Shown here in pieces: positions 5,308 to 46,019 of a DNA stretch of 64,000 nt. Location: positions 543 through 64,542 of the forward strand of contig VBKF01000101.1 in assembly GCA_005888095.1 (NCBI GenBank), given 5' to 3'. A model generated the notes under the pieces. It was not told where the DNA came from. It did no database searches and saw only the letters and a program-made list of their open reading frames with translations. The stretch is from Deltaproteobacteria bacterium (GTDB lineage Bacteria; Desulfobacterota; Binatia; DP-6). How positions within the stretch are numbered: position 1 is the stretch's first letter; every line of letters starts with the position of its first letter. Position numbers and translations under genes: made by a program.

Positions 5308-5434
5308 GCCTTCCGTCCAAGGAACCGTGCACGGCCGCGGCACCCGGGCGCGCATGCCGGCCGGGCCGCGGCCCCGTGCCCTGCATCGATGGCCAGCCAG
5401 GAGGCACGGGCCCTGCTGAAGGTCGAGGCAAGCC

Positions 5435-5824
5435 ATGGCGGACGACTCGGTGCTCGATCCTGGCGAGGAGGAGGCGTTCGCCGAGTTCCCCGTCGACCTC
5501 GCCGCGACGTCGGCCGTCGGCTTCATCGTCGGCGGGCTCACCGCCGCTGCCGTGTACGCGTGTTATCCGCCGGTTCACGGGCGTGCGCCGATCATCGCCA
5601 CGGGCGTCGGCTCGGTCGTGCTGATCGGGGCGCTCTACCTGGTCGTGGCCCGACTCGCGCGGCTCCGGGCCGCGGACTGGCTGGTCGTCGGGTACGCGGT
5701 CGCGCTGGTCGGGGTGGCCGCCTTCCTGATCGCCGTCGAAGGTGTCCAGGTACTGCGCGACCACGTCCCCTCGCACCTGGGCGTCCCGGTGGCAGGTGTC
5801 GCGTCGCGCCGGCCCGCGGCCTGA
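5435..5824 (+). CDS. Small integral membrane protein, unknown function
   Basis: A 129-residue protein that I do not recognise. An acidic N-terminus (DPGEEEAFAEF) precedes three hydrophobic segments at roughly residues 22-42, 50-70 and 82-105, with an Arg-rich loop between the second and third. It ends in a short basic tail. It lies 126 bases after the FecR-type gene and 56 bases before the tetR start, separated from the latter by the operator palindrome. It could belong to the preceding transcription unit. No catalytic motif is visible. Confidence 0.6.
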   Translation: MADDSVLDPGEEEAFAEFPVDLAATSAVGFIVGGLTAAAVYACYPPVHGRAPIIATGVGSVVLIGALYLVVARLARLRAADWLVVGYAVALVGVAAFLIAVEGVQVLRDHVPSHLGVPVAGVASRRPAA

Positions 5825-6477: not shown

Positions 6478-7532
6478 CGCGACGGGCCGCCGCGCTGGTC
6501 GTTGCGCTCGGCCTCGCGGCCGCCGCCTGCGGCGAGCGCTCGCGGGCCGAGCCGTCGACCGCGACCAAGCCGGAGCCGGTGACGGTCACGGTCGCGAACA
6601 CGGCCGTGCGGCCCATCGAGCGCACGGTGTCGGTGGTCGGCACGCTGGCACCGACCGCGCAGGCCGAGGTGGCGAGCGACATCGAGGGACGGCTGGTCGC
6701 CATCGAGGCCGACCTCGGCGATCGCGTGCACCCCGAGCAGGTGCTGGCGCGTGTGCGCGAGGACGAGATCCGGGCGAAGCTGCGGGAGGCCGAGGCGAGC
6801 CTCGAGAAGGCCGTCGCCGACGAGGGCAGGGGCCGTCCGCTGCACGGCAACGGCGTCATCTCGGCCCAGGAGTACGAGCAGGTGCGGACGGCGCTCGAGG
6901 TGGCGCGGGCGCGGCGCGACCAGCTCCGCATCCAGCTCGAGCGCGCCGCCATCCGCTCGCCGCTCGAAGGCTCCGTCGCCGCCCGCCTCCTCGACGCGGG
7001 CTGCTACGTGAAGCCGGGGACGGTGGTCTTCCGGCTGGTGCAGGACGACCCGCTCAAGTTCCGCGGCGACGTCCCGGAGCGCGATGTCCCGGCGCTCGCC
7101 GCCGGTCAGGACGTGCGCATCACCGTCGACGCCTTCCCGGGCGAGACCTTCGTCGGCCACGTGAGCCGCGTCGGCGCGGCCTCCGATCCGGCCGTCCGCT
7201 CGCTCGCCTTCGAGGCGCTGGTGTCCAACGAGGACCACCGCCTCCGCCCGGGCTTCTTCGGCCACGGCGAGGTGGTGGTGCGGCGCGACGAGCGGGCGCT
7301 GGCCGTGCCGCGGAGCGCGCTCAGCACGTTCGCGGGCGTCACCAAGCTCTTCGTCATCGAGGACGGCGTCGCGCGCGAGCGACAGGTCGTCGTCGGCGTC
7401 GACCTCGGCGACGGCTGGGTGGAGGTGACCGAGGGGGTCGCGCGCGGCACCCAGGTGGCGACCAGCGGCCTCTCCAAGCTCGCCGACGGCACGCCGGTCG
7501 TCGTGCGGGCCGACGCCCCGCCCGGGGCCTGA
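6474..7532 (+). CDS. RND efflux periplasmic adaptor (membrane fusion lipoprotein, HlyD/AcrA type)
   Basis: A 352-residue adaptor that would link the inner-membrane RND pump to an outer-membrane channel. The signal sequence ends at AAAAC with Cys19, suggesting lipidation. A barrel/lipoyl half-motif (VVGTLAPTAQAEVASDIEGRLVAIEADLGDRV region) is followed by a short alpha-hairpin (about residues 98-155), the second lipoyl half (IRSPLEGSVAARLLDAGCYV) and beta-barrel and membrane-proximal domains. The hairpin is shorter than in AcrA. The start overlaps the tetR stop (ATGA), and the pump gene follows after 10 bases. Confidence 0.9.
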   Translation: MTRRAAALVVALGLAAAACGERSRAEPSTATKPEPVTVTVANTAVRPIERTVSVVGTLAPTAQAEVASDIEGRLVAIEADLGDRVHPEQVLARVREDEIRAKLREAEASLEKAVADEGRGRPLHGNGVISAQEYEQVRTALEVARARRDQLRIQLERAAIRSPLEGSVAARLLDAGCYVKPGTVVFRLVQDDPLKFRGDVPERDVPALAAGQDVRITVDAFPGETFVGHVSRVGAASDPAVRSLAFEALVSNEDHRLRPGFFGHGEVVVRRDERALAVPRSALSTFAGVTKLFVIEDGVARERQVVVGVDLGDGWVEVTEGVARGTQVATSGLSKLADGTPVVVRADAPPGA

Positions 7533-7542
7533 CGGGTCGCGC

Positions 7543-10500
7543 ATGCGCTTCGCCGACGTCTTCATCCGCCGCCCGGTCTTCGCGACCATGCTGATCGCGT
7601 CGCTCGTGGTGCTCGGGCTCTTCTCCTACCGGAGCCTCGGCCTCGACCTCTTTCCGAACATCGACTTCCCGATCGTCACCGTCACCACGACGCTCAAGGG
7701 CGCGAGCGTCGAGGAGATGGAGACCGGGGTCACCAAGGTGATCGAGGAGGCGGTCAACACGATCGACGGCATCGACGAGCTCCGCAGCATCACCAAGGAG
7801 GGCCTGTCGGCGATCGTCATCCAGTTCGTGCTCGAGAAGTCGCGCGACACCGCGGCCCAGGACGTGCGGGACAAGGTGGCCACCGTCCTCGCCCAGCTGC
7901 CCGTCGGGACCGACCCGCCGGTCATCGACAAGTTCGACGTGGACGCCATCCCCGTCATGGGCATCGCGCTCTCCGGGCGGCGGAACCTGCGCGAGGTGAC
8001 CGAGCTCGCCCGCCGGCAGGTGAAGGAGGACATCGAGACGCTCGCCGGGGTCGGGCAGGTGCTCATGCTCGGCGGCCAGGAACGCGCCATCAACATCTCC
8101 GTCGACCCGGACCGGTTGACGGCGCAGGGCCTGTCGATCGGCGAGGTGCGCGACGCGATCCAGCGGCAGAACCTCGAGCTGCCCGGCGGCCGGCTCGACC
8201 AGACGCGCCGCGAGCTGGTGGTGCGCACCATGGGCCGCGTCGAGCGGGCCGCCGATTTCGGCGACCTCATCGTGGCGCGCGGCGGCGAGCGGCCGCTGCG
8301 GGTGCGGGACATCGGCACGGCCGAGGACGGCATCGTCGAGCCGCGCACGCTCTCCCGGCTGAACGGCGAGAAGGCCGTGCAGCTCGTCGTCCGCAAGCAG
8401 TCCGGCACCAACACCGTCGAGGTGATCGACCGGGTGCACGCCGAGCTCGACCGGCTGCGTGCGGTGCTGCCGGCGGACATCGAGATGCGCGTCATCCGCG
8501 ACCAGTCGCGCTTCATCAAGGCCTCGATCGAGACGGTGCGCGTGCACATGTGGCTCGGCGCGGCGCTCGTCGCGTTCACCGTGCTGCTCTTCATGCGCGA
8601 CTGGCGGAGCACGGTGGTGGCGGGCATCGCCATCCCGACCTCCGTGGTCTCCACCTTCACCTTCATGCGCTACATGGGCTTCACGCTGAACAACGTTACG
8701 ATGCTCGCCCTGGTGCTCGCCGTCGGCATCGTGATCGACGACGCGGTGGTCGTGCTCGAGAACATCTTCCGCCACGTGGAGGAGGAGGGGACGCCGCCGC
8801 GGCGCGCGGCCTCCGAGGCGACCGCGGAGATCGCCCTCGCGGTCATGGCGACGACGCTCTCGCTGGTCATCATTTTCCTGCCGGTGGCGTTCATGGCGGG
8901 GCGCGTGGGGCGCTTCTTCCACAGCTTCGGGCTGACGGTGGCGGTGGCGATCATGGTGTCGCTCCTCGTCTCCTTCACGCTCACCCCGTCGCTCAGCGCG
9001 CGGGTGCTCCGGCGCCGCGGCGGCCACGCCGCCGAGGGCGGCCGCCTCTATCGCCTGGCGGAGCGCGCCTACGGCCGCGTGCTCGCCTGGTCGCTCGGCC
9101 ACCGCTGGGTGATCGTGCTGGTCGCCGTCGCCACCGTGCTGTCCACCGGGCCGCTCTTCCGGACGGTCGGGAAGACGTTTCTTCCGCAGGACGACCAGAG
9201 CGAGCTCGAGATATCGATCCGGACGCCAGGCGGCTTCACGCTGGCCGAGACGTCGCGCCTCTTTGCGGAAATCGAGCAGCGCGTGCGAGCGCTCCGGGGC
9301 GTCACCGACGTGCTGGCGACGATCGGCGACCAGTCCGGGCGGGTCAAGCCGGGCGAGGGCGACGTGACCACCGGCTCGATCTACGTCCGGCTCGTCGACC
9401 TCCGCGCGCGGCGCTTCTCGCAGTTCGACGTCATGGCCGACGCCCGCCGGCTGCTCGCGGAGTACCCCGACCTCCGCACCAGCGTCCAGGGCGTGAACCC
9501 GTTCTCCACGGGTGGGCAGCGGCTCTCCGACGTCGAGTTCAACCTGCGCGGTCCCGACCTCGACCGCCTGCAGGCCTACGCCGACCGGGTGATGCCGGCC
9601 ATGCGCGAGCTGCCCGGTCTGGTCGACGTCGATACGACCCTCGCGGTGCGGACCCCCGAGCTCAGGCTCCTGATCGACCGCGAGAAGGCGTCGGACCAGG
9701 GCGTCAACGTGCAGGACATCGCCGCCACCGTGCAGACCTATGTCGCCGGCCAGCCGATCTCGAAGTACAAGGAGAGCGACGAGCAGTACGACATCTGGCT
9801 CAGGGCCGAGGCGGGCCGGCGGCGCACGCCGGACGACGTCGGGGACCTCACCGTGCGGGCCCACGGCGGCGCGCTCGTCCGGCTCCGCAATCTCGTGCGC
9901 CTGCGCGAGGACCTGGGGCCCGCCGAGATCGACCGCGTCGACCGCCAGCGCTCGGTCACGATCGTCGCCAACCTGCTGCCCGAGCTGCCGCTCGCCACGG
10001 CCATCGCGCACGTCAACCGCATCGCGGCCGAGCTCGACATGCCGCCCCTCTACAACGTCCAGTGGACGGGCCGCGCCAAGACGCTCGCCGAGAGCAACCT
10101 GAACTTCGTGCTCGCCTTCGGCCTGAGCATCGTGTTCATGTACATGGTGCTCGCGGCGCAGTTCGAGAGCTTCGTCCACCCGGTCACCATCATGCTGGCG
10201 CTGCCGCTGACGGTGCCGTTCGCGCTCTTCTCGCTCGTGTGCCTCGGCGAGGCCCTCAACGTCTACAGCATGCTCGGGCTCTTCATGCTGTTCGGCATCG
10301 TGAAGAAGAACGGCATCCTGCAGATCGACTACACCAACACGCTCCGCGCGCGCGGCGTGCCGCGCGACCAGGCGATCCGTGAGGCGAACCGCGTGCGCCT
10401 GAGGCCCATCCTCATGACCACGGTCATGCTCATCTTCGGCATGCTGCCGATCGCCCTCGGTCAGGGACCGGGCTCGGGATCGCGCGGCTCGATCGCGCGC

Positions 10501-13424: not shown

Positions 13425-16400
13425 CGCCGGTGCCAGTAGACGTCGATCGCGCTGTCGCCGCGCGTCGACGTCGAGCCCTTGACCGAGATCTCGGGCGTGA
13501 GGCCGTACTCGACCCCCACCGCCTGGCCCGCGCGCGCGCCGAACTCCTGCGCGAGCGACACGAAGACGTCGCCGGCCACGTAGCGGCCGACGCTCACCCG
13601 CCCGCGGCGCTCGGTGCCGCCGCCCTGCGGCATCTCGACGTCGAGGGTGTCGAGCCCCAGGGTGTCCATGACCGACGCCCGCAGCTCCGGCATGACGTAG
13701 CCCGAGGCGAGCTGGAGGGCCTGCTCCTGGAGCGCGGCGCTCTCGCCCTTGCCGAGGTCGCGCGCGGGCTTGCCGAAGACGATGACCGAGAGGATGTCCG
13801 CCTGCTCGAGCGGCGGGTCGGAGGCGAGCGTGAGCTCGGGCTTCTCGCTCGTGCCGCCGAGGTGCACGGTGACGCGATAGTTCGGGTTCTTGAAGACGGC
13901 GGTGACGTCGAAGGCCGGATTGGGTGGCGTGGCGCCCTTGAACGTGATCGTGCCCTCCTCCTCGAGCGTGAACCGCCGGCCCTGGAAGACGTACCACCCG
14001 CGGAGGAGACGGATGGCGCCCGCGATGTGGACGGCCTCTCCGGGCGCCTGGGTGACCTTCAGCTCGCCACCGAGCTCGATGTCCGCATCCGCCCGGCGCA
14101 CCCAGGCGTTGCGCTGGATGCGCGCGGCCACCGCCAGCCGGAGCGCCCGCACGAACGAGGGCGTCTCCGGCGGCGTCTCGTGCGGCGCGGGACCGCCGAC
14201 CACCACGATCGAAGGATCGGCCTTCAAGGCACTGTCCTGCGCGGGGAGGACAGCGGGGCGGACGACTGCGCGCTCGACCTGCAGGTCCGCCTGCACGTCG
14301 GGCGCGCCGACGCTGCCGCCGACGCCGATCGTTCCGCTGACTGCCGCCTCGAGCTCGGGGCGGCGTACGGCCATGAAGTCATGCAGGTGCGCGCGCAGGT
14401 CGAGCGCCGCGGAATCGCCGCCGGCGAGGCCGATGCGGCCGGTGGCGTCGAGCGTGCCGTCGCCCCCGCGCGCATGGAGCGCGCCGAGCTCGATCGCGTC
14501 CCCGGCGGCCGCGAGCTGCACGCGAACCTCCTCGTACGTCGCGCCGGTCGCCGCCAGCACCAGACGGCCGGCCGCGAGCGTCGCGCTGCCTTCGGCACGC
14601 GGGGCGGCGCGCGTCCCGCTGAGCCGCGCGTCCAGCGCGAGCCGGCCGTCGGCCTCGCGGACCTGACCGGGCGCGAGCGCGCGGGCGAAGCGGAGATCCA
14701 GGCTGTCCGCATGCACGCGGATCGCGAGCGGCTCGCCCGACGTGTTCCGTCGCGCTCCGGCCCACGCGAGGTCGATGGGTACCGTGCCGTCGGCGCGAAG
14801 CTCGCCCGCCTCGGGGTGGCGGAGGAGGCCGTGCAGGGTCGCCTGCCGCTCCGCGTAGCGGGTGTCGAGCGTCAGGCTGCCGAGCGCCACGTCGTCCACG
14901 CGGAGCGAGTCCGCGCGCACGGTTGCCCCGAGGCGTGGCGCCACCGCCGTGCCTGCGAGGCGCGCCTGGAGTGACAGCGTCCCGCCGCAGCTCCGGCCGC
15001 CGGCGAGCGTGCAGAACGGCGTCAGCTCGAGGCCTGCGATCTCGAGCGACGCGTCGCTCTCGCCGGTGCGGCCGAGCTTGCCGGCGAGCGTCACGCGCTG
15101 CGCGGCGGCCGCGAGCGCGATGGCCTCGCTCTTCACCGCGTCGTCCGAGACCGTCACGCTGGCCGGGCGGACGAGACGCCACGGCGGACCTCCGGACGGC
15201 GTCCCGACGAGCTCCTGGATGGCGATCGTCGCCGTCGAGCCGGCGCGCGTGAGCGTGGCGGCGAGCCGGTCTGCCGCGCCCTCGTCCCCGGCCGCCGTCA
15301 CCGTGAGGCTCGTGCGGTCGGCCCCGGCGGCCCGTTGCCAGTCGACTGCGGCCGCGACCGTGCGCCGCCGGTACGCGTGGACCTGTGCGTCGGTCAGCTC
15401 GAGACGCAGCTGGCCGCGTGGCCCCGCGCTCCCCACGCCGCCGAGCTCGAGTGCGGCCCTCGCGCGGCCGGCGCCGAACGCGCCGTAGGCCGGGTTCTCG
15501 AGCTCGGTCCTCGCGGTGACGGCGAGCCCGGTGAGCGGCCCGCGCGCGGCGCCGGTCGCGCTCGCCGAGCCCGCGAGCGGGAGCCCGAGACGCTCGCCGA
15601 GGGCTCGGAGGTCCGCCGCGGCATCGAGCGTCACGTCGAGCGCCGGGCGCCCGAGGTCGAGGATGCCGGTCGCGCTCGCGCTGCCCTCCGGTCCCTGGAG
15701 GCTCGCGGTCTCGAGGCGCAGCTGCTCGCCGTCGAGCCGTGCATGCAGCACACCTCCGCGCAGCACGACGCCGTGGAGCGACGCGCCGAGGAGCGTCGCG
15801 TGCGCCTCGGCGCGGCGAGTCAGGGCGTCGAACCCTCGCCCGGCGACGCGCGCCTCGGCCGCGACCCACCCGGGCGCGCGCGGGACGATCTCCTCCAGAT
15901 GCTCGAGGCGCAGGCGGGCGGCGAGGCGGTACGCCGGAATCGAACCGGTGACGACGCGGGCGCGGAGCCGGCCCTCGCCCGCGGGCGCGACGACCCGCGC
16001 GCGGGCGTGATGCACGCCGTGCGCTCCCCGACCGCCGAGCACGGCACGGGCGAGCGAGCGGCCGCCAACCGCCGATCGGCCGAGCGCCAGCCGGTAGGCG
16101 AGGGGCGCCTCGAGTCCGATTCCCCGACCCCGCGCCCGCGCGCGCCCGTTGGCCTGGGCGCGCACCAGACCGGCCACCGCCGCGCCGGGATCGAGCCCCG
16201 CGAACTCGGCGCTCGCCGCGTAGACGACCGGCTGCGTGCCGAGGTCCGCCCGAACGTGGCCGCGCACGGTCCCGGCTGTCCCGAGGTCGGCTTGCAGGCT
16301 CAGCTCCACGGCGCGCCACGGGCCCGAGGTGTCGCCCGTGGCGACGACGTCCGTCAGGAGCGGGCTTGCGGGCACGAGCGCGCGGAGCTCTCCGGCATCG

Positions 16401-37818: not shown

Positions 37819-38091
37819 ATGACGAAGGCCGACCTGATCGAGTCCGTCTCCACCAAGCTCGACCTGCCCCGGGGGCAGGCTGAGCGGGCCGTCAACACGA
37901 TCTTCGACGACATCGTCGCCGCACTCCGCAACGGGGACAAGGTGAACATCTCCGGCTTCGGCACGTTCGCGGTCTCGGCTCGCAAGGCGCGCAGCGGCCG
38001 CAATCCGAAGACGGGCGAGACCATCCAGATCGCCGCCTCGAAGTCCGCGAAGTTCAAAGCGGGCAAGACCCTCAAGGACACGCTCAACTGA
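37819..38091 (+). CDS. HU-family DNA-binding protein
   Basis: A 90-residue nucleoid protein that bends DNA as a dimer. The start [14 protein letters not shown] and the core [28 protein letters not shown] (with the intercalating proline in RNPKTG) are diagnostic of HU/IHF. The position right after lon matches hupB in many bacteria, although HU-alpha, HU-beta and IHF cannot be cleanly separated here. The GGAGGGG ribosome site lies three bases before ATG 37819. tRNA-Val begins 13 bases after the stop. Confidence 0.95.
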
Positions 38092-38104
38092 ACGCGCGTA
38101 CCGC

Positions 38105-38176
38105 GGGCGGTTAGCTCAGCGGGAGAGCATCGGCCTTACAAGCCGGGGGTCGCCGGTTCGATCCCGGCACCGCCCA
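38105..38176 (+). tRNA. tRNA-Val (anticodon TAC)
   Basis: A 72-base cloverleaf with acceptor GGGCGGT/ACCGCCC, anticodon loop CTTACAA (TAC, reads GTA) and T-loop TTCGATC. Discriminator A; no CCA encoded. A 257-base gap to tRNA-Asp follows; it holds no supported gene, only the tRNA-Asp promoter near its end. Confidence 0.95.
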
Positions 38177-38383
38177 CTCTGCTGCGAGTGCAGGCGGTGG
38201 GAAGCGAGACATCGGGCGACGACATGTCGGGCCGTGTGCGCGTCGACTGCTCCTCGCGCGCGCAACGTGACTACGCGCGTGTTCCACGGAGTGCCGTCAT
38301 GACGCACGAGTGTCCCGACGAAAACAATGCGCGGCCGCGAAACCTCCGCGCTCGCGGCGACGAACGGGGAAGCTGCCCGTCGG

Positions 38384-38412
38384 TTGCAAGATGCGCCGCG
38401 CTCGGCTACTAG
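38384..38412 (+). promoter_or_regulatory. Candidate tRNA-Asp promoter
   Basis: TTGCAA (38384-38389) and TACTAG (38407-38412) are 17 bases apart, placing initiation about 15 bases before tRNA-Asp. Confidence 0.45.
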
Positions 38413-38433
38413 CTATCGCTTCCGAGGACGCAC

Positions 38434-38510
38434 GGGGTCGTAGTTCAGTTGGTTAGAACGCCTGCCTGTCACGCAGGAGGTCGCGAGTTCGAGTCTCGTC
38501 GGCCCCGCCA
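38434..38510 (+). tRNA. tRNA-Asp (anticodon GTC), CCA encoded
   Basis: Acceptor GGGGTCG pairs with CGGCCCC; the anticodon loop CTGTCAC gives GTC. Discriminator G at 38507 is followed by a genomically encoded CCA (38508-38510), unlike the other tRNAs in the window. It lies upstream of rplM. Confidence 0.95.
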
Positions 38511-38581
38511 TTTGCGGAGGGACGTGTGTGGCGGGCGTCCCTTCGGGATTCATCCCTGAGCACGGCATGTCGACGACGCGG

Positions 38582-39019
38582 ATGACCAGGAGTCTGAGTG
38601 CGGAGGATGCACGGGCGGCACGCTGCTGGTACGTGGCCGATGCCGAGGGCAAGGTGCTCGGCAGGCTGGCGTCGCGCATCGCCTCGGTGCTGCGCGGCAA
38701 GACGAACCCGGCCTTCGCGCCGCACGTCGACGCCGGCAGCTTCGTCGTGGTGGTGAACGCCGCCAAGGTGCGGCTGACCGGGCGCAAGCTGGCCACCAAG
38801 GAGTACCTGCGGCACACCGAGTATCCCGGGGGCATCCGGCGGGCGACCGCCGCGGAGGTCCTCGCCAAGCACCCCACGCGCCTGCTCCGCGATGCGGTGG
38901 AAGGCATGCTGCCGAAGAACCGCCTCGGACGGCGCCTGGCGACCAAGCTCAAGGTGTATGCGGGACCGAACCATCCGCACCGGGCGCAGAAGCCGGCGCC
39001 TCTGCCCGACGTGAGGTAA
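38582..39019 (+). CDS. rplM: 50S ribosomal protein L13
   Basis: An L13 of about 145 residues. Family motifs: WYVADAEGKVLGRLASRIA, HVDAGSFVVVVNAAKVRLTGRKL, YPGGIRRATAAEVL and GMLPKNRLGRRLATKLKVYAG. ATG 38582 is chosen because E. coli L13 has 14 residues before the conserved Trp; ATG 38567 and GTG 38528 are in frame and would add 5 or 18 residues. None has a strong ribosome site. It pairs with rpsI, six bases downstream, in the universally conserved rplM-rpsI operon. Confidence 0.93.
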   Translation: MTRSLSAEDARAARCWYVADAEGKVLGRLASRIASVLRGKTNPAFAPHVDAGSFVVVVNAAKVRLTGRKLATKEYLRHTEYPGGIRRATAAEVLAKHPTRLLRDAVEGMLPKNRLGRRLATKLKVYAGPNHPHRAQKPAPLPDVR

Positions 39020-39025
39020 TTCGCC

Positions 39026-39424
39026 ATGGCCGATCGCGTTCCTCTCCTCTGGGGCACCGGGAAGCGAAAGTCGTCCGTCGCCCGCGTGCGGCTCGCGCTG
39101 GGCGACGGCACCATCGTCGTCAACGAGCGTCCGCTCGACACCTACTTCGGGCGCGAGACCTCGCGCATGATCGTCCAGCAGCCCTTCGAGGTGACCTCCA
39201 CGCAGGGCACCTACCGGACCGACGTGAACGTCTGCGGCGGAGGCGTATCGGCCCAGGCGGTCGCCATCCGGCACGGCATCACGCGCGCGCTCCTCGAGGC
39301 CAACCCCGACTTTCGCTCGGCGCTCAAGAAGGCAGGCTTCATCACGCGCGACTCGCGCGAGGTCGAGCGCAAGAAGTATGGCCGCCACAAGGCGCGCAAG
39401 CGTCCGCAGTACTCGAAGCGCTGA
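39026..39424 (+). CDS. rpsI: 30S ribosomal protein S9
   Basis: A 132-residue S9. It begins with the conserved [14 protein letters not shown] block and ends with the basic C-terminal tail [19 protein letters not shown], whose final SKR reaches the P-site tRNA. It overlaps nothing and follows rplM by six bases; argC starts 49 bases later. Confidence 0.97.
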
Positions 39425-39473
39425 TCGCGGCCGCGGCGTTGCGTGCCCCGCACGCCGTGCATAGGCTAGGTGA

Positions 39474-40520
39474 ATGGAGGCGGTCCGGCCAGCGACGCGC
39501 ACGCCCGTTTCGGTGCTCGGCGCCACGGGCTACACGGGCGTGGAGCTGCTGAGGTTGCTCGCCCAGCACCCGGCGGTCGAGCTCGCCTACCTCTCCTCGG
39601 AGCAGTATCGGGGCCGGCGCGCGTCGGAGGTGTATCCCTTCCTCGCCGGCATTGTCGACGAGGCGCTCGGGGCGCCCGAGCCGGCGGCGGCGGCGGCCGG
39701 GGACGTCGTCTTCACCGCCCTGCCGCACGGGGCTGCCGCGCCGCTCGCGCGCGAGCTGCTCCGGCGGGGGCGGCGTGTGATCGATCTGTCGCCCGACTTC
39801 CGCCTGCGCGATGCCGCCGTCTATGCCCGCTGGTACGGCGAGCACCCGGCGCCGGAGCTGCTGCCCCAGGCGGTCTACGGGTTGCCCGAGCTCTACCGCG
39901 ACCAGCTGCGGCCAGCGCGCCTCGTCGCGAATCCCGGCTGCTATCCGACGGCGGCGCTGCTCGGGCTCGCCCCGCTCGCGCGGGCCGGGCTGCTGTCCGC
40001 GCCGGCGGTCATCGACGCCAAGTCCGGCACGACGGGCGCAGGGCGGGCTGCCAAGGTCGAGCAGCTCTTCGCCGAGGTGAACGAGAACTTTCGCCCGTAC
40101 GCGATCGCTGCCCATCGCCACGGTCCCGAGATCGAGCAGGAGCTGCGCGCGGCGGGCGCGGCCGCTCCGCCGCTGTTCGTGCCGCACCTCCTGCCCGTCA
40201 GCCGCGGCATTCTGGCGACGATGTACGTGCGGGTCCCGGGCGGGAAGCCGCAGCTCGATTCCCTCTTCGAGACGGCCTATGCGCGCGAGCCGTTCGTCGT
40301 GCTTCGTGGCGATGGCCCACCTCCGGAGCTGCGCGAGGTGCGGGGCACGAACCGCTGCGTGCTCGGCTGGCGCTGGGACGAGGCGACCGGGCATGCCGTG
40401 GTCGTGAGCGCCATCGACAACCTCGGCAAGGGCGCCGCAGGACAGGCGGTGCAGTGTCTAAACCTGCTGCTCGGCCTGCCTGAGACGACGGGTCTCGAGG
40501 CGCCGGCGCTGGTGCCTTAA
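39474..40520 (+). CDS. argC: N-acetyl-gamma-glutamyl-phosphate reductase
   Basis: A 348-residue NADPH-dependent enzyme of arginine synthesis that reduces N-acetylglutamyl phosphate to the semialdehyde. The Rossmann start VLGATGYTGVELLRLL and catalytic Cys156 in NPGCYPTAALL are clear, as are FVPHLLPVSRGI and the C-terminal NLGKGAAGQAVQCLN. Length matches the family. It follows rpsI rather than other arg genes, a location seen in several lineages. The 3' end faces the paired hairpin repeats at 40526-40696. Confidence 0.95.
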   Translation: MEAVRPATRTPVSVLGATGYTGVELLRLLAQHPAVELAYLSSEQYRGRRASEVYPFLAGIVDEALGAPEPAAAAAGDVVFTALPHGAAAPLARELLRRGRRVIDLSPDFRLRDAAVYARWYGEHPAPELLPQAVYGLPELYRDQLRPARLVANPGCYPTAALLGLAPLARAGLLSAPAVIDAKSGTTGAGRAAKVEQLFAEVNENFRPYAIAAHRHGPEIEQELRAAGAAAPPLFVPHLLPVSRGILATMYVRVPGGKPQLDSLFETAYAREPFVVLRGDGPPPELREVRGTNRCVLGWRWDEATGHAVVVSAIDNLGKGAAGQAVQCLNLLLGLPETTGLEAPALVP

Positions 40521-40525
40521 CGATA

Positions 40526-40696
40526 CCGGGGGCCCGTGCGGTGCTCGGGCGCGGCTGCGCCGCGCCCTGCGCTCCTCCGATGCCCCCGGACCCCGTCGCT
40601 CGCGCGCGGCAAAGCCGCGCGCGGCTCCTGACCCAACCGGGGGCCCGTGCGGTGCTCGCGCGGCTAGCGCGCGCTGCGGTCCTCCGATGCCCCCGG
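40526..40696. repeat. Paired GC-rich hairpin repeat (two copies) between convergent genes
   Basis: Two copies (40526-40589 and 40637-40696) each start CCGGGGGCCCGTGCGGTGCTC and end GATGCCCCCGG, so each unit is bounded by complementary ends. Between them lies a perfect stem CGCGCGCGGC-AAA-GCCGCGCGCG (40601-40623). The second copy ends at the lptG stop codon. The same family recurs at 44207-44400. The layout is like a REP/BIME doublet and would form strong hairpins between argC and lptG, possibly a two-way terminator. Confidence 0.8.
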
Positions 40697-41800
40697 CTAC
40701 TGCTCGCCCAGGATGAGGTAGCTGCCGATCAGCCCGAAGAGGCCGTTGGCGGACCACGCCGCTAGGGCAGGGGGCAGGGCGTGGCTCTGGCCGAGGGCGC
40801 GGGTGAAGGCGAGCACCACGAAGTAGGCGAAGCCGAGGGCGAAGCCGAGGCCGATACCGCTGGCGAGGCTGGTCACCCGTGTGCCCTTGAAGGCGAGCGG
40901 CACGGCGAGCAGCATCATCATGATGCTCGCCGCGGGCAGGGCGAGCTTCAGGTCGAGGTCGACCCAGCTTTCAGAGACGTCGACACCCTTGCGCCGGAGA
41001 TCGCTGATCTGCCGGTGGAGCATGGCGTAGCTGAACTCCTCGGGTTCCACGGAGACCACCTGAAAGTCGGCAAGGGTCTCGGGGAGTATGAAGTCCTCCG
41101 GCTCGCGAGGTGTCTCGTGCACCCCGTCCGGCCCGAACTCGCGCGTCCGGGCACCGACGAGCTGCCAGCGCTCGTGGCCCCAGAGAACCTCGGTGGCCTC
41201 GATCAGCCGCCGGAGGCGAAAGTCGGGGCCGAGCTGGTAGACCGTGAGGCCGTAGAGGGCGCCGCGCTGGGGCGCCACCCGGTTGATGTTATAGAAGCCG
41301 GCGCGCCCGTGGTACCAGACATCCCGCCCGGTAAAGACGCTCGCCACGCCGCGCTTCTTGATCTCCAGGTCCTCGATCGCGTGCCAGCGGCGTGCGCTCT
41401 CGGGCACAAGCCTCTCGTTCCAGACGAAGACGCCGACGCTGATCGCGGCGGCGAGGCCGAGCAGCGGCGTCGCCACCTGCCACACGCTCACGCCGCACGC
41501 CCGCAGCGCGACGAACTCGTTGTGCCTGGCGAGGAGGCCGAGGCCCACGAGCGCCCCGGCCAGCACGGCAAACGGTGCCACCTGGGTCACTACGAGGGGC
41601 AGCTTGAAGATGAAGTACCGCACCATGGCGTCCGGCGGGGCCTCGTGGCGGAGGAAGCTGTCGAACCGATCGAAGAAGTCGACGATGACATAGATCGCCA
41701 CGAAGGCGAGCAGGGCGAGCGCGAAGACGCGCAGGAACTCCCCCGTCACGTGGCGGGCGACGACGGGCGCGAGGAGCCGCCGGCCGGGGCTCACGGTCAT
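40697..41800 (-). CDS. lptG: LPS export ABC transporter permease LptG
   Basis: A 367-residue YjgP/YjgQ-family permease that with LptF and LptB2 extracts LPS from the inner membrane. N-terminal helices (VFALALLAFVAIYVIVDFFDRFDSFL) and APFAVLAGALVGLGLLARHNEFVALRACGVS are characteristic; a periplasmic jellyroll (about 145-260) and three C-terminal helices follow. ATG 41800 overlaps the lptF stop by four bases, so translation is coupled. The long frame upstream is open but belongs to lptF in another frame. It converges on argC across the hairpin repeats. Confidence 0.93.
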   Translation of the reverse strand: MTVSPGRRLLAPVVARHVTGEFLRVFALALLAFVAIYVIVDFFDRFDSFLRHEAPPDAMVRYFIFKLPLVVTQVAPFAVLAGALVGLGLLARHNEFVALRACGVSVWQVATPLLGLAAAISVGVFVWNERLVPESARRWHAIEDLEIKKRGVASVFTGRDVWYHGRAGFYNINRVAPQRGALYGLTVYQLGPDFRLRRLIEATEVLWGHERWQLVGARTREFGPDGVHETPREPEDFILPETLADFQVVSVEPEEFSYAMLHRQISDLRRKGVDVSESWVDLDLKLALPAASIMMMLLAVPLAFKGTRVTSLASGIGLGFALGFAYFVVLAFTRALGQSHALPPALAAWSANGLFGLIGSYLILGEQ

Positions 41801-42864
41801 GCCTCGGCCCCGAGACGGGCGACGACCTTCTGCCGAAGGGCGGCGAGTCCGACCTGCACGCGCTCGAGCCGCATCGCCGTCCGCTCGCGGGCCGCCTGTG
41901 CGAAGAGGTAGCTGCCGAGGGCCGCGAGCACGAGATTCGGCAGCCAGAGCCCGAACGCCGCCGACATGACGCCGCGCTCCGCCAGCGTCTGTCCGGCCGA
42001 GAGGAAGATATAGTAGGCGAAGATCACGACCAGGCTCACGACGAAGCCGCGCGCGCGAACGGCCCGTGCCGGCTGGACACCGAGCGGGACCGCGACGAGC
42101 CCGAAGACGATACAGGCGAAGGGGATCGAGAACTTGCGGTGGTACTCGACCAGCTCCGGACCGTACGGCCGGCCTGCCGCTTGCTTGGCGGCGATCGACC
42201 GGGCGAGCTGCCCGAGCGTCAGCTCTTTCGGGTCGCGCTCTCGCTGCCTGAGCCCGGCAAAGGCCTGTCGCAGATCGAGGTTGACATCGTAGGACTGGAA
42301 GTCGGTCTGGTACTCCGCGCCGCCCCGGGGGTCGGTGGTGTGAATGGAGCCCTCGAGGAGGCGCAGGGTCACCGTCTGCGCCCGGCGGTCCGAGATCATG
42401 AAGCCCGCCCGGGCGAAGATCGTGTTGTGCTGCTGCGGGTCCCGTTCGTCGGCGATCAGCACGTGCGCCAGGCGATCCATGGTCGGATCGATGCCTTCGG
42501 CGTAGATCACGAGGCCCGGGAAGTCGTCGTTGAAGACCGCGGGCTTCAAGCCCGCGCTCGCGCGGGTCCGGGCCATGTCGTAGAGCGCCGTCTTCAGCGA
42601 GCGGTTGCCCCAGGGCCGCGCGTACAGGGCAATGCCGGCGGTGGCCGACGTCGCCAGCGCGACGAAGATGACCACGGGGGGCATGAGCTGGTAGAGGCTC
42701 AGCCCCGAGCTGCGAAGCGCCACCATTTCGGAGTCCGCCGAGAGCCGCCCGAAGGCGATCAGGATCGCGAGCAGCATCGCCATCGGAACGGTCACCTCGA
42801 GGAACGCCGGCATGATGTAGGCGAAGAGCCGCATGATGCTCGCGAGCGGCAGGCCGCGGCTCAC
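41797..42864 (-). CDS. lptF: LPS export ABC transporter permease LptF (start uncertain)
   Basis: At least 355 residues of the LptF permease, with helices, RPWGNRSLKTALYDMARTRASAGLKPAVF, a beta-jellyroll and the C-terminal helix block FACIVFGLVAVPLGV. The first in-frame canonical start is GTG 42864, but the frame continues upstream with family-like sequence (KILHRYVFREILLPFAFGL... through about 42978), which encodes the first transmembrane helix. No ATG, GTG or TTG exists between that segment and the in-frame stop near 43035. Either initiation uses ATC/CTG, or the start has been altered by an error or mutation. It is divergent from rlmB with almost no intergenic space. Confidence 0.85.
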   Translation of the reverse strand: MSRGLPLASIMRLFAYIMPAFLEVTVPMAMLLAILIAFGRLSADSEMVALRSSGLSLYQLMPPVVIFVALATSATAGIALYARPWGNRSLKTALYDMARTRASAGLKPAVFNDDFPGLVIYAEGIDPTMDRLAHVLIADERDPQQHNTIFARAGFMISDRRAQTVTLRLLEGSIHTTDPRGGAEYQTDFQSYDVNLDLRQAFAGLRQRERDPKELTLGQLARSIAAKQAAGRPYGPELVEYHRKFSIPFACIVFGLVAVPLGVQPARAVRARGFVVSLVVIFAYYIFLSAGQTLAERGVMSAAFGLWLPNLVLAALGSYLFAQAARERTAMRLERVQVGLAALRQKVVARLGAEA

Positions 42865-43001
42865 GACCAGCTCGATGAGCTTGAGGAGCCGGGCGACGAG
42901 CAGGACGAAGGTGAAGACGCCGAGGCCGAAGGCGAAGGGGAGGAGGATCTCCCGGAAGACGTACCTGTGGAGGATCTTGACGATCGAGCGAGGGTAGCAG
43001 G

Positions 43002-43763
43002 ATGAGGCGGAATCGAACAGTGGATCGGCCGCTCATCGTCCACGGCGCGAACCCGGTGCTCGAGCTCCTGCGGAGCAGCCACCCCGTGACGCGCGTGCAC
43101 CTCGGCCCGGGGCCTCGCACGCGAGAGCTGGCGGTCGCCGCGCGCGAGCGCGGCGCCCCCGTCGTGCAGGAAGCCGACCGCGGTGCGCTGGCGCGCCTGG
43201 CCGGATCGCCCCATCATCAAGGGGCGGTGGCGATCGCACCGCCGTTCCGGTACGCCGCCCTCGAGTGCCTGCTCGCTCCGGAGCGCCGGAGCGCGCTCCT
43301 GCTCGATGGCCTTCAGGATCCCCGGAACCTGGGGGCGATCATCCGCACGGCCCGGGCGGTGGGGCTTGGCGGTGTCGTCCTGCCGCAGGATCGCAGCGTC
43401 GGCGTGACCGGCGTCGTGGCGGCGACCTCGGCCGGTCTCGTCTTCGGGCTGCCGGTCGTGCGGGTCCCGAACCTCGTCCGGGCCATGGGGGGGCTCAAAG
43501 ACGCCGGCTACTGGCTCGTCGGGCTGGCCCCCGAGGCGCCCGACCGCCTCGGGGACCGCGAGCCGCCGCGGCGGATCGCCGTCGCCCTAGGTGGGGAGGG
43601 CGAGGGGCTGCGCCCCCTCGTCCGTCGGGCCTGCGACTTCCTGACCTCGATCCCGATGGCCCCCGGGGTCGATTCTCTGAACGTGGCCGTAGCCGCCGGG
43701 ATCGCGCTCTACGCCCTCGTCAAGCCCCCGCCCCGGGCCTCCCGAGTCCCGGCAATTCCTTGA
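43002..43763 (+). CDS. rlmB: 23S rRNA (guanosine-2'-O)-methyltransferase, RlmB/SpoU family
   Basis: A 253-residue SPOUT-fold methyltransferase that would methylate the 2'-OH of G2251-type 23S rRNA using SAM. An N-terminal substrate-binding domain (IVHGANPVLELL) precedes the knotted domain with DGLQDPRNLGAIIRTA, VALGGEGEGLR and SLNVAVAAGIALYAL, the three conserved motifs. RlmB is preferred to other TrmH members because of the N-terminal HGANPV motif. Its stop TGA lies within the -35 box of the following tRNA cluster. Confidence 0.92.
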   Translation: MRRNRTVDRPLIVHGANPVLELLRSSHPVTRVHLGPGPRTRELAVAARERGAPVVQEADRGALARLAGSPHHQGAVAIAPPFRYAALECLLAPERRSALLLDGLQDPRNLGAIIRTARAVGLGGVVLPQDRSVGVTGVVAATSAGLVFGLPVVRVPNLVRAMGGLKDAGYWLVGLAPEAPDRLGDREPPRRIAVALGGEGEGLRPLVRRACDFLTSIPMAPGVDSLNVAVAAGIALYALVKPPPRASRVPAIP

Positions 43764-43788
43764 CAGCGTCCGGAGCCGATGTTAGGAA
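43760..43788 (+). promoter_or_regulatory. Promoter of the tRNA-rpmG-secE-nusG-ribosomal cluster
   Basis: TTGACA (43760-43765) and TAGGAA (43783-43788, then T) with a 17-base spacer. It follows rlmB directly and precedes tRNA-Thr by about 135 bases of leader that holds no gene. The hexamers resemble the rpsL promoter (TTGACA-N17-TAGGAT). Confidence 0.55.
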
Positions 43789-43928
43789 TGCAAATTTCAT
43801 TCGACACCAAAGGGGATTTCTCCCCACCACCACGGGTTCGGCTTCGCTACTGAACGGCCCGCAAGCGGCCGAGGAGGGTTCCGCGGGAAGGCTGGGAGCG
43901 TGGGGCGCCGGCAGGGAGCGTCCGGCCC

Positions 43929-44000
43929 GCCGATGTAGCTCAGGGGTAGAGCAGCTGACTTGTAATCAGCAGGTCGTCGGTTCGACTCCGACCATCGGCT
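43929..44000 (+). tRNA. tRNA-Thr (anticodon TGT)
   Basis: A 72-base cloverleaf: acceptor GCCGATG/CATCGGC, anticodon loop CTTGTAA (TGT, reads ACA), T-loop TTCGACT, discriminator T. First member of the classic Thr-Tyr-Gly-Thr cluster upstream of secE/nusG. Confidence 0.95.
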
Positions 44001-44030
44001 CGCGCGTCAACGGTTCTCGAGGCCAGGTGC

Positions 44031-44113
<83 letters not shown>

Positions 44114-44122
44114 TTTCGAGAC

Positions 44123-44195
44123 GCGGGAGTAGCTCAGGTGGTAGAGCGCGAGCCTTCCAAGCTCGGGGTCGCGGGTTCGATTCCCGTCTCCCGCT
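44123..44195 (+). tRNA. tRNA-Gly (anticodon TCC)
   Basis: A 73-base cloverleaf: acceptor GCGGGAG/CTCCCGC, anticodon loop CTTCCAA (TCC, reads GGA), T-loop TTCGATT, discriminator T. The paired hairpin repeats start 11 bases after it. Confidence 0.95.
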
Positions 44196-44206
44196 TCTAT
44201 TGGCCT

Positions 44207-44400
44207 CCGGGGGCCCGTGCGCTCCTCGCGCGCTGCGCGCGCTGCGGTGCTCCGATACCCCCGGACCCCGCGCCGCACGCGGCGAAGCCGCGCGCGGCTT
44301 CTTCCCGGGGGCCCGTGCGGTGCTCGCGCCCTGCGGGCGCTGCGCTCTTCCGATGCCCCCGGACCCCGCGCCGCACGCGGCGAAGCCGCGCGCGGCTTCT
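44207..44400. repeat. Paired GC-rich hairpin repeat (two copies) inside the tRNA cluster
   Basis: Two further copies of the repeat seen at 40526-40696, at 44207-44264 and 44305-44362, 98 bases apart. Each begins CCGGGGGCCCGTGCG and ends GATACCCCCGG or GATGCCCCCGG. Each is followed by a stem GCCGCACGCGGC-GAA-GCCGCGCGCGGC with one mismatch (44272-44298 and 44370-44396). They fill most of the 248-base gap between tRNA-Gly and the second tRNA-Thr, which otherwise holds no gene. Confidence 0.8.
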
Positions 44401-44443
44401 GGGGGCGCGGCGGAGGTCGCGGAGGTCGATGTCTGCTCGCTGT

Positions 44444-44516
44444 GCCCACGTAGCTCAGGCGGCAGAGCACTTCCTTGGTAAGGAAGAGGTCACCGGTTCG
44501 AATCCGGTCGTGGGCT
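44444..44516 (+). tRNA. tRNA-Thr (anticodon GGT)
   Basis: A 73-base cloverleaf: acceptor GCCCACG/CGTGGGC, anticodon loop TTGGTAA (GGT, reads ACC), T-loop TTCGAAT, discriminator T. It is followed directly by rpmG; the tufB gene found here in many bacteria is absent. Confidence 0.95.
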
Positions 44517-44532
44517 CCGCGGAGGGAGCCGC

Positions 44533-44685
44533 ATGCGCGATCTGATCACGCTCGTCTGCGACGGATGCAAGCGGAAGAACTACACCACGACGAAGAACAA
44601 GAAGCGTACGACGGACAAGCTCGCGCTCAAGAAGTTCTGCCCGGCGTGCCGCAGCCACACGGTCCACAAGGAGGGCAAGGTCTAG
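44533..44685 (+). CDS. rpmG: 50S ribosomal protein L33
   Basis: A 50-residue L33. It starts [24 protein letters not shown] and ends [19 protein letters not shown], with both CxxC pairs (zinc-binding type). GGAGGGAG lies five bases before ATG 44533. It sits between tRNA-Thr and tRNA-Trp, its standard position in the secE-nusG neighbourhood. Confidence 0.95.
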
Positions 44686-44711
44686 CGGACCGGGGTGCGC
44701 CCCGGCGTGCG

Positions 44712-44785
44712 GGGTCAGTAGCTCGAACGGCTAGAGCACCGGACTCCAAATCCGGGGGTTGCAGGTTCGAATCCTGCCTGACCCG
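44712..44785 (+). tRNA. tRNA-Trp (anticodon CCA)
   Basis: A 74-base cloverleaf: acceptor GGGTCAG/CTGACCC, anticodon loop CTCCAAA (CCA), T-loop TTCGAAT, discriminator G. Ten bases before secE. Confidence 0.95.
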
Positions 44786-44794
44786 TGAGATGCC

Positions 44795-45007
44795 ATGAAC
44801 GCCATCGAGTCGCTGAAGCAGCCCATCGCGCGGTCGCGGGAGTTCCTCGAGGAATGCTGGGCGGAGCTCAAGAAGGTGCACTGGCCGGCACGCAAGGAAA
44901 CCCAGGCGGCGACGATCGTGGTCATTATCGGCGTGGTCATCGTGGGACTGTACTTGGGGCTCGTCGACTTCCTGCTGTCCGTGATCATCCGACGGGCGCT
45001 GAGTTGA
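44795..45007 (+). CDS. secE: Preprotein translocase subunit SecE
   Basis: A 70-residue single-helix type SecE that clamps SecY in the Sec translocon. The cytosolic amphipathic helix ends in AELKKVHWPARKET, the diagnostic motif, followed by one transmembrane helix (TIVVIIGVVIVGLYLGLVDFLL). Its stop overlaps the nusG start (TGATG), so the two are coupled. Confidence 0.95.
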   Translation: MNAIESLKQPIARSREFLEECWAELKKVHWPARKETQAATIVVIIGVVIVGLYLGLVDFLLSVIIRRALS

Positions 45008-45558
45008 TGGCCGAGGAAGGGGGACGAAACTGGTACGTGGTGCACACGTACTCCGGCTACGAGCACAAGGTGAAGGCGGCGCTCGAGGAGCGCATCCGCT
45101 CGCTCGGGAAGCCCGATCTCTTCGGACCGATCCTGGTCCCCTCCGAGAAGGTCGTGGAGCTCGTGAAGGGGAAGAAGAAGACGTCGTCCCGCAAGTTCTT
45201 CCCCGGCTACATCCTGGTCAACATGAAGCTCAACAACGAGACCTGGCACATCGTCAAGTCGACGCCCAAGGTCACGGGCTTCCTCGGTGGGGGAATGGAC
45301 CCCAGCTCCATCCCGCCCATCTCGGAGGGGGAGGTGCGCGAGATCACGCACCAGATGGAGGAGGGGGCGGTCAAGCCGAAGCCGAAGGTGCTGTTCGAGC
45401 AGGGGGAGCAGGTGAAGGTGGTCGACGGTCCCTTCCAGGACTTCAACGGCGTCGTCGAGGAAGTGAAGCCGGACAAGGGAAAGCTCCGGGTGCTGATCAG
45501 CATTTTCGGACGTGCCACCCCCGTCGAGCTCGACTTCGTCCAGGTGGAGAAGGCGTGA
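45007..45558 (+). CDS. nusG: Transcription termination/antitermination factor NusG
   Basis: A 183-residue elongation factor that binds RNA polymerase and links it to Rho or the leading ribosome. The NGN domain begins NWYVVHTYSGYEHKVKAAL and contains FFPGYILVNM; the KOW domain has EQVKVVDGPFQDFNGVVEEV. ATG 45007 is fixed by the overlap with secE. Length is typical. Confidence 0.96.
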   Translation: MAEEGGRNWYVVHTYSGYEHKVKAALEERIRSLGKPDLFGPILVPSEKVVELVKGKKKTSSRKFFPGYILVNMKLNNETWHIVKSTPKVTGFLGGGMDPSSIPPISEGEVREITHQMEEGAVKPKPKVLFEQGEQVKVVDGPFQDFNGVVEEVKPDKGKLRVLISIFGRATPVELDFVQVEKA

Positions 45559-45573
45559 GGGAAGGCTGAACGG

Positions 45574-45996
45574 ATGGCGAAGAAGGTCATCGCGGAGATC
45601 AAGCTCCAGATTCCCGCCGGTCAGGCCAATCCCAGCCCGCCGGTCGGTCCGGCTCTCGGCCAGCGCGGCGTCAACATCATGGAGTTCTGCAAGGCCTTCA
45701 ACGCGCAGACCCAGGCGCAGGCCGGGCTCATCATCCCGGTCATCATTACCGTCTATGCCGACCGGTCGTTCACGTTCGTCACCAAGACCCCGCCGGCAGC
45801 CGTGCTGCTCAAGCGCGCGGCAGGCATCGAGAAGGGATCGGGCGAGACGGGTAAGAAGAAGGTGGGCCAGGTGACCCGGCAACAGCTGGAGGAGATCGCG
45901 CGGCTCAAGATGCCGGACCTCACTGCGGCCGACCTCGCGGCGGCCGTCCGGACCGTGGAAGGCACGGCCCGGAGCCTCGGGCTCGAGGTCGTGTAG
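45574..45996 (+). CDS. rplK: 50S ribosomal protein L11
   Basis: A 140-residue L11 of the GTPase-associated centre. It has the Pro-rich N-terminal [21 protein letters not shown] and the rRNA-binding C-terminal domain ([37 protein letters not shown]). Standard length; AAGG ribosome site upstream. First of rplK-rplA-rplJ-rplL. Confidence 0.97.
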
Positions 45997-46019
45997 CGGA
46001 TTCGCAGGAGCGACGAGAC

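Follow-up and report, generated by a model that had tools for sequence, protein, structure and literature searches.

A two-hairpin, REP-like repeat family found between the convergent argC and lptG genes of a Binatia bacterium

We uncovered a family of repeats in the genome of a deltaproteobacterium of the Binatia (assembly GCA_005888095.1) that is multicopy and mostly intergenic, often lying at the 3′ ends of genes. Copies occur in either orientation, and a site that is occupied in one genome can be empty in a congener. The units form head-to-tail arrays, and their fold is maintained by compensatory change, including fixed non-Watson–Crick positions. We consider it likely that the repeat is a non-autonomous REP-like mobile palindrome, which would spread as a folded single strand through an enzyme encoded elsewhere.

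Anatomy of the unit and its copies in the window

The family is typified by two units lodged between the convergent genes argC (N-acetyl-gamma-glutamyl-phosphate reductase; 39474–40520, forward strand) and lptG (LptF/LptG permease; 40697–41800, reverse strand) in the window, i.e., the whole 64,000-nt stretch that was analyzed. An earlier note on this DNA had named both genes and their layout, with which the Pfam domains (semialdehyde dehydrogenase domains upstream, LptF_LptG downstream) and the gene ends agree: argC terminates at 40520 and the lptG stop codon begins at 40697 on the reverse strand. The 176-nt gap from stop to stop is filled by two copies of a hairpin, HP1, with a second GC hairpin, HP2, between them. 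On the forward strand, unit 1 comprises: an AT-rich leader, GCCTTAACGATA (40514–40525), that holds the argC stop codon TAA (40518–40520); HP1 (40526–40589), with the outer stem CCGGGGGC/GCCCCCGG, a middle stem with a T.T mismatch and an inner GC stem; a linker, ACCCCGTC (40590–40597), whose ACCCC is nearly invariant across the family; and HP2 (40598–40628), in which a perfect 10-bp GC stem (40601–40610 with 40614–40623) bearing an AAA loop (40611–40613) is followed by GC and the tail TCC. Unit 2, on the same strand, consists of an HP1 (40637–40696) with the same complementary ends and no HP2 after it, and adjoins the lptG stop codon. The near-identical units, the perfect stem with its AAA loop and the reach of the second unit to the lptG stop are all as the note had described them.

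The further copies that the note placed 3.5 kb away are units 3 and 4, likewise on the forward strand, which occupy the tRNA-Gly/tRNA-Thr gap 3.57 kb from the argC–lptG pair. Unit 3 has a leader (44196–44206) immediately 3′ of tRNA-Gly, an HP1 (44207–44264) recognized both in the sequence and as a covariance-model match, and a linker with HP2 (44265–44302) read from the sequence; in unit 4, blastn and covariance-model matches mark HP1 (44305–44362), followed by a linker and HP2 (44363–44400), again by sequence reading. The surrounding region (43929–45996) carries tRNAs for Thr, Tyr, Gly, Thr and Trp among and before rpmG-, secE-, nusG- and ribosomal-protein-like genes (named by eye).

The full unit, about 110 nt long, runs in the order AT-rich leader (12 nt), HP1 (a hairpin of 58–64 nt), ACCCC(GTC or GC) and HP2. 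HP1 itself is layered: after the outer stem come a CG/CG step of 2 bp, then a middle stem in which one mismatch, T.T or T.G, is fixed, and innermost a GC stem that varies in length. Of the paired hairpin repeat seen by the note, the pairing stands, but the two units are arranged head-to-tail (as direct repeats) and not inverted; likewise, the AAA hairpin between them is real, but it is no spacer, being HP2, a regular part of the unit.

The four units are not chance resemblances, because several measures single them out. Exact matches to the 15-mer CCGGGGGCCCGTGCG occur in the window in units 1–4 and nowhere else; with up to three mismatches the same pattern is no better than in shuffled windows (29 found, 25.2 expected). 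The covariance model recovers units 1 and 3 in the window with E of 1.8e-19 and 9.6e-20, the next match being at 0.037; it misses units 2 and 4 in that search, whereas the genome search gives them E of 1.3e-8 and 4.7e-16. Moreover, the fold of a 113-nt stretch surpasses those of its dinucleotide shuffles by about 5 s.d. (z from −4.95 to −5.39 over both strands, as RNA and as DNA).

Copies, carriers, placement and turnover

The home genome (G000; 5,455,905 bases in 271 contigs) yields 52 blastn matches at E ≤ 1, far above the four copies known to the note, together with 46 covariance-model matches at E ≤ 1 (42 at E ≤ 0.01). Since these are mostly intergenic and often at gene 3′ ends, the note's view of a REP-type dispersed element is upheld. 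Dropping three weak blastn matches (C89:124221, C90:106453 and C106:38347) leaves 49, which make up 37 sites. Several sites are arrays of two or three units with a period of 90–140 nt. All 12 neighboring pairs less than 400 nt apart are head-to-tail and not alternating, so that the BIME-type arrangement also proposed by the note finds no support. At one locus (L134, G000:C89:60000–74000, 6858–8409), inverted arrays of three and two units surround a segment of about 1.1 kb with a small gene that, judged by eye, resembles one for a lipoprotein. Contigs C227 and C178 have copies at their ends, and the repeat thereby marks spots at which an assembly can break.

Within the taxonomic family, five of seven genomes have model matches (G000, G001, G002, G004 and G006), and two others that are 99–100% complete, G003 and G005, have none. 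Among 58 genomes of relatives, 11, the home genome included, show a match at E ≤ 0.01, five of them with one to four weak matches each; G004 has 33 matches and G050 has 12. In the class, seven of 148 genomes have a match at E ≤ 1e-4 among the best 25 candidates scored per genome. In a phylum sample of 395 genomes, 14 matched the pattern and nine were scored with the model, which supports three, among them G116 and G150, members of a different family. The other pattern-matching genomes of this sample are left as unproven, outer-stem pairing being at most 6/9 outside G000 and G150 among the places listed; G116 too has 6/9, yet is supported by the model. Six copies in the family of G116 and G150 are AT-richer (54–61% GC), four of which keep CCGTGCGG..CCTCCGATG and all six ACCCC or GCCCC. 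In the family of a Myxococcales MAG record (L069), all three genomes have 2–9 matches at E ≤ 0.01. Exact pattern matches in named records come mainly (36 of 40 stretches) from three MAGs that bear the names Deltaproteobacteria DP_3, DP_23 and DP_26. Their contig coordinates agree with those of G002, G006 and G001, respectively, with which they are probably identical; they may be grassland-soil Binatota.

Several apparent occurrences were set aside. Records from Gammaproteobacteria, Actinobacteria and Verrucomicrobia (L048, L064 and L065) were dropped as the second half of HP1 is absent, although L048 still receives a model E of 0.0099. A phage or plasmid origin was likewise rejected: 77 viral contigs match CCCGTGCGGN{5,35}CTCCGATG, which we take as chance because their outer stems pair poorly (7/9 in L201, 6/9 in five, lower in the other 71), and one query each of plasmid and phage records returned no match to the repeat. 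One chance pattern match (L279, in G114) falls inside an apparent CRISPR array, the repeat of which ends in GTGGATTGAAAC.

Gene positions for the placement analysis came from a custom gene caller plus tRNAs, applied to sequence fetched around the elements. Though 91% of this sequence is coding, 33 of the 37 home-genome sites lie between predicted genes. When all 52 blastn matches are counted, the three weak ones included, and background gaps are drawn from the same loci chosen around elements, 11/49 convergent, 18/290 codirectional and 2/44 divergent gaps are occupied. Convergent gaps are thus over-represented (11/49 versus 20/334 others; Fisher p 0.0006), and, per intergenic nucleotide, the three classes are not evenly occupied (chi-square p 6e-5); the depletion of divergent gaps is not significant per gap (2/44 versus 29/339, p 0.56). 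Both the intergenic bias and the preference for convergent gaps that the note had raised are accordingly seen. At 20 of 37 sites (tRNA-Gly counted), no more than 30 nt separate the start of HP1 from the end of a same-direction gene; at four, a gene of opposite direction is that close. Since element-free gaps are short, with medians of 21 nt (convergent) and 12.5 nt (codirectional), such nearness to stop codons needs no targeting. An orientation bias along genes, strong at first sight, was discarded: codirectional gaps give nine elements with and eight against the genes, four additional ones overlapping predicted genes.

The leaders (n = 93) reach AT fractions of 0.82, 0.89 and 0.94 at −8, −7 and −6, compared with a mean of 0.26 in the 12 nt after the stop codons of 166 element-free genes; TTAAC as a fixed target was rejected, the leaders being AT-rich yet variable. 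At argC and some other sites the leader contains the stop codon of the preceding gene, and GTAG REP ends are described as often supplying stop codons (Di Nocera and others, PMC3733652). At another locus (L151, G000:C96:35200–45200, ~4519–5073), a dUTPase-like frame (named by eye) reads through a unit and thereby gains a tail past its usual C-terminal motif. Elsewhere (L137, G000:C103:102700–112700, 4976–5490), a unit follows the RNase P RNA gene rnpB directly on the same strand, at a distance of about 7 nt. Units also sit in gaps that look operonic: between atpD/atpC-like, uppS/cdsA-like and sdhB/sucC-like genes in the home genome, as HP1-only copies in the rpoB/rpoC and rplP/rpmC gaps of G004 (L412, G004:C127:76000–91389, 1115–1200 and 14398–14480), and between ftsA and ftsZ in G050. 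In five of these six gaps, which were picked by eye and for which operon status is inferred from codirectional neighbors, the element runs against the genes, such that their transcript would carry its opposite strand; the exception is uppS/cdsA.

To follow sites across genomes, the terminal 150 nt of each of 19 upstream genes were queried against the taxonomic family and the downstream stretches scored by eye; orthology here means DNA similarity of the gene end, and the gene at C73 has several paralogues. In the congener G001, 16 sites could be compared: four have the element (C125, C137, C173 and C94, the last without the inner hairpin), argC and C152 have remnants, C160 has a reversed element, and nine are without it, C132 among these keeping CCGG. 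In the second congener, G002, one of 16 sites has it (C94) and 14 do not, of which C137 may hold a scrap; at C185 a reversed copy lies about 150 nt downstream. The other genera are represented by few sites. G006 carries a different subtype at C185 and C73 and lacks the element at argC, C106, C132 and C137; in G004 it occurs at C186 and is absent from C106 and C152, with half of an HP1 left as a remnant at argC; there is none in G003 (argC and C152 read) or G005 (argC read). For 53 of the 96 copies the closest relative is from the same genome, where shuffled labels give 24.3 on average (maximum 41 in 2000 shuffles), the copies from other genomes being part of those these genomes contain. Thus, with nearest relatives in the same genome and orthologous gaps mostly empty, copies increase in number inside genomes, and individual sites gain and lose them. 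Neither a target-site duplication nor a clean excision could be demonstrated at the sites compared. Some “empty” sites may in fact be remnants, because scraps persist at the near-empty C132 site of G001, which retains TAGATTCCGG, and at the C137 site of G002, which has CCGGGCATCGGA. In G006 (G006:C141:8131–9095; L185, L186) the match to lptG is split into two pieces (query 1–270 and 310–365), which may reflect a frameshift or an assembly error.

Fold, candidate enzymes and competing explanations

In an alignment of 29 home-genome copies (A1), 96.4% of the cells in stem positions pair, compared with 39–53% when the structure is slid; both sides have changed in 13 of 29 pairs, and no shuffle out of 500 attains the observed value on any of five measures, it being understood that the structure was derived from A1 itself, which favors it. 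Among 34 matches from other genomes (A2), 92.5% of the cells pair and 23/29 pairs change on both sides; among 96 distinct copies (A3: 37 own, 25 from G006, 15 from G004, 12 from G001 and seven from G002), the values are 96.0% and 19/29, both alignments having been fitted to the model and hence leaning toward it. A compensatory difference at C173 between the home genome and G001 was left out as proof of selection in place because it may stem from an independent insertion.

At inner-stem positions 37–38/72–73 of HP1, the 94 rows with letters there comprise GC/GC (69), CC/GG (12), TC/TC (10) and three single other paired types. All ten rows in which both pairs are broken are exactly TC/TC, with no other unpaired type, and the departures from pairing in HP1 are therefore not random decay. 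Read on the opposite strand, TC/TC is GA/GA; the inner loop of HP1, TNC in 73 of 96 rows, is GNA; and an internal loop of TGC (53 rows) or TCC (35) against TC is GNA against GA. Tandem GA/GA pairs and GNA triloops are unusually stable, the latter above all in DNA. HP2, whose stem mostly opens with CG or TG pairs, has GC/GC in 48 rows, TC/TC in 22, TC/GC in five and GT/GC in five; at 130–131/160–161 a pair is broken in 17 rows, four of them TC/TC. The GA/GA, GNA-loop and GNA/GA motifs point to the opposite of the written strand as the one that folds. The T.G form of the middle mismatch (25 rows, against 69 with T.T) and the loops of HP2, which on the written strand are GNA in 28/96 or AAA in 22/96 (the commonest being GAA, 23, and AAA, 22), favor the written strand. 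The G-A motifs by themselves cannot tell DNA from RNA.

The note had proposed a test for a RAYT-type transposase, and this revealed no link to the repeat. The Y1_Tnp domain (PF01797) has seven weak matches in the home genome and 24, from seven genomes, among ten further ones; around the resulting 31 loci in eight genomes no unit lies in the flanks (up to 1.5 kb on each side, some ended by the contig), and the best model E is 0.29. Matches to a lenient pattern (0–1 mismatch) at five of these loci (L031, L301, L310, L316 and L319) were taken as chance because of such unconvincing model scores. No Y1_Tnp match at E ≤ 0.001 occurs in G004, G005 or G050, of which G004 and G050 are carriers. No transposase was recognized between paired copies (C89:67115–68199 and pairs in G004, G006 and G150), where the proteins were judged by eye from their first residues and some were given to Pfam. 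The E. coli TnpA-REP is described as requiring the stem mismatches of its REP, and such proteins as reading one strand (PMC8266576). By analogy, the fixed mismatches of our repeat suggest a strand-specific reader of single-stranded DNA.

We propose that the element moves as one DNA strand in folded form and that this is most probably the strand opposite to that written, which would present a GNA triloop in HP1, GA/GA tandems in place of GC/GC, and GA/GNA internal loops. A putative nuclease or transposase, whose gene would lie elsewhere in the genome, might recognize these G-A motifs, just as TnpA-REP reads the mismatches of the E. coli REP. Copies would persist mainly where they do least harm, namely past stop codons, between convergent genes and in the gaps of operons, and any effects on mRNA 3′ ends would be secondary. 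A more sweeping version, in which single folded strands with sheared G-A motifs constitute an ancient class of mobile DNA, shared by several distinct bacterial groups and moved by an as yet unrecognized enzyme other than a RAYT/Y1 transposase, strikes us as rather unlikely.

The main competing explanation is the two-way terminator of the note, or more generally a 3′-end element whose hairpins stop or protect the transcripts of the preceding and convergent genes. It would account for the very stable hairpins, the 20 HP1s close behind same-direction genes (against four by opposite-direction ones), the 11 filled convergent gaps and the units right after rnpB and a tRNA gene. However, a T-tract is absent, and a terminator scan of 38000–46000 shows no site at the element and no excess (two found, 3.2 expected). 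Together with the copies between genes of likely operons, from atpD/atpC to ftsA/ftsZ, this makes a strong terminator unlikely, one which in operon gaps would be costly. Further, the even split of codirectional gaps and the orthologous gaps that manage without the element speak against it, and the short element-free gaps make closeness to a stop codon near-automatic. We thus regard this explanation as decidedly improbable as the basis of the family, weak termination or mRNA protection being conceivable.

A structured RNA read from the opposite strand, whether a cis element or a small RNA, that duplication has spread and protein binding preserves would fit the conserved fold (which has, on that strand, a GNA loop and internal loops of GA/GA and GA/GNA), the core CCGTGCGG..CCTCCGATG retained in some distant AT-richer copies, and the five of six operon-like gaps with that strand in the transcript. 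Yet the strand bias vanishes over all codirectional gaps of the home genome, sites turn over fast, and Rfam gives no match at its curated cut-off and no convincing weak one, which leaves this alternative very doubtful. Finally, the repeat might be a REP of the classical kind, tagged with GTAG or CGTC and mobilized by a RAYT of its own genome: the genomic habits are those reported for such REPs (PMC3733652), CGTC precedes HP2 in over half of the copies, and the home genome has its weak Y1_Tnp matches. Against this, GTAG adjoins HP1 in none of 93 leaders, none of the 31 Y1 loci lies near a unit, the carriers with 33 and 12 matches have no Y1_Tnp match at E ≤ 0.001, and the arrays are uniformly head-to-tail; this explanation is hardly credible. 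The non-autonomous REP-like palindrome is accordingly the reading that we compare with known systems below.

Relation to known repeats

No Rfam family matches the unit, a literature search for four of its sequence words finds no paper, and no such family appears in the titles or abstract openings of papers listed for REP/RAYT, for repeats of Binatota and for stem-loop repeats. One paper, PMC3110155, concerns a repeated element in Bordetella. The main text of PMC12306157 (RepRanger) has no Deltaproteobacteria, Myxococc-, Desulfobacter- or Binat- names, and the part of PMC2267715 compared makes no mention of Geobacter, Myxococcus, Bdellovibrio or Desulfovibrio. For Rfam and these portions of the literature, the note's statement that the repeat matches no known family holds. 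CGTC REPs have no known dedicated transposase, and REPs lacking one are posed as an open question on their account (PMC3733652). The present family is suited to that question: carriers and non-carriers (G003 and G005) occur within one taxonomic family, congeners vary in the sites they have occupied, the fold is under tight constraint, and the strand-specific G-A features may serve as bait for the enzyme.

The family is REP-like in the broad sense, being a multicopy, intergenic, imperfect palindrome with presence and absence at orthologous sites. With the GTAG REPs and BIMEs associated with RAYTs, prototyped by the E. coli REP, it shares small imperfect palindromes in tens of copies, between genes and near 3′ ends, and conserved stem mismatches (PMC8266576 and PMC3733652). 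It differs from them in that GTAG occurs at −4 to −1 in 0/93 leaders (and anywhere in the leader in three), in its unit of about 110 nt with two unlike hairpins as opposed to 20–40 nt, in its head-to-tail arrays where BIMEs are head-to-head, and in having no RAYT beside its copies. Like CGTC REPs, it occupies convergent and unidirectional gaps; unlike them, HP2 opens with GC and most commonly has GAA or AAA loops, whereas CGTC REPs have stems of 8–9 bp opening with AT and loops of 4–5, and HP1 has no counterpart there. As to the tag, CGTC stands before HP2 in 52/96 copies, is not seen in 44/96 (some of which are without HP2) and occurs in none of 93 HP1 leaders (TGTC and CCTC also count as CGTC REP tags).

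A likeness can further be inferred to the ends of IS200/IS605 elements and their non-autonomous derivatives, with subterminal mismatched hairpins read as single-stranded DNA and an AT-rich stretch beside the left hairpin; here there is no tnpA and no defined cleavage or target site is seen, and the leader is AT-rich and not a fixed tetra- or pentamer. Intrinsic terminators share the GC hairpin after stop codons, but differ from our element by their T-tract and from its placement between likely-operon genes. The absence of a GTAG tag, the head-to-tail arrays and the conserved G-A loops on one strand are what is new in this family. Thus, as best we can read it, the repeat is REP-like, new in sequence and anatomy, and best classed with neither the GTAG nor the CGTC REPs.
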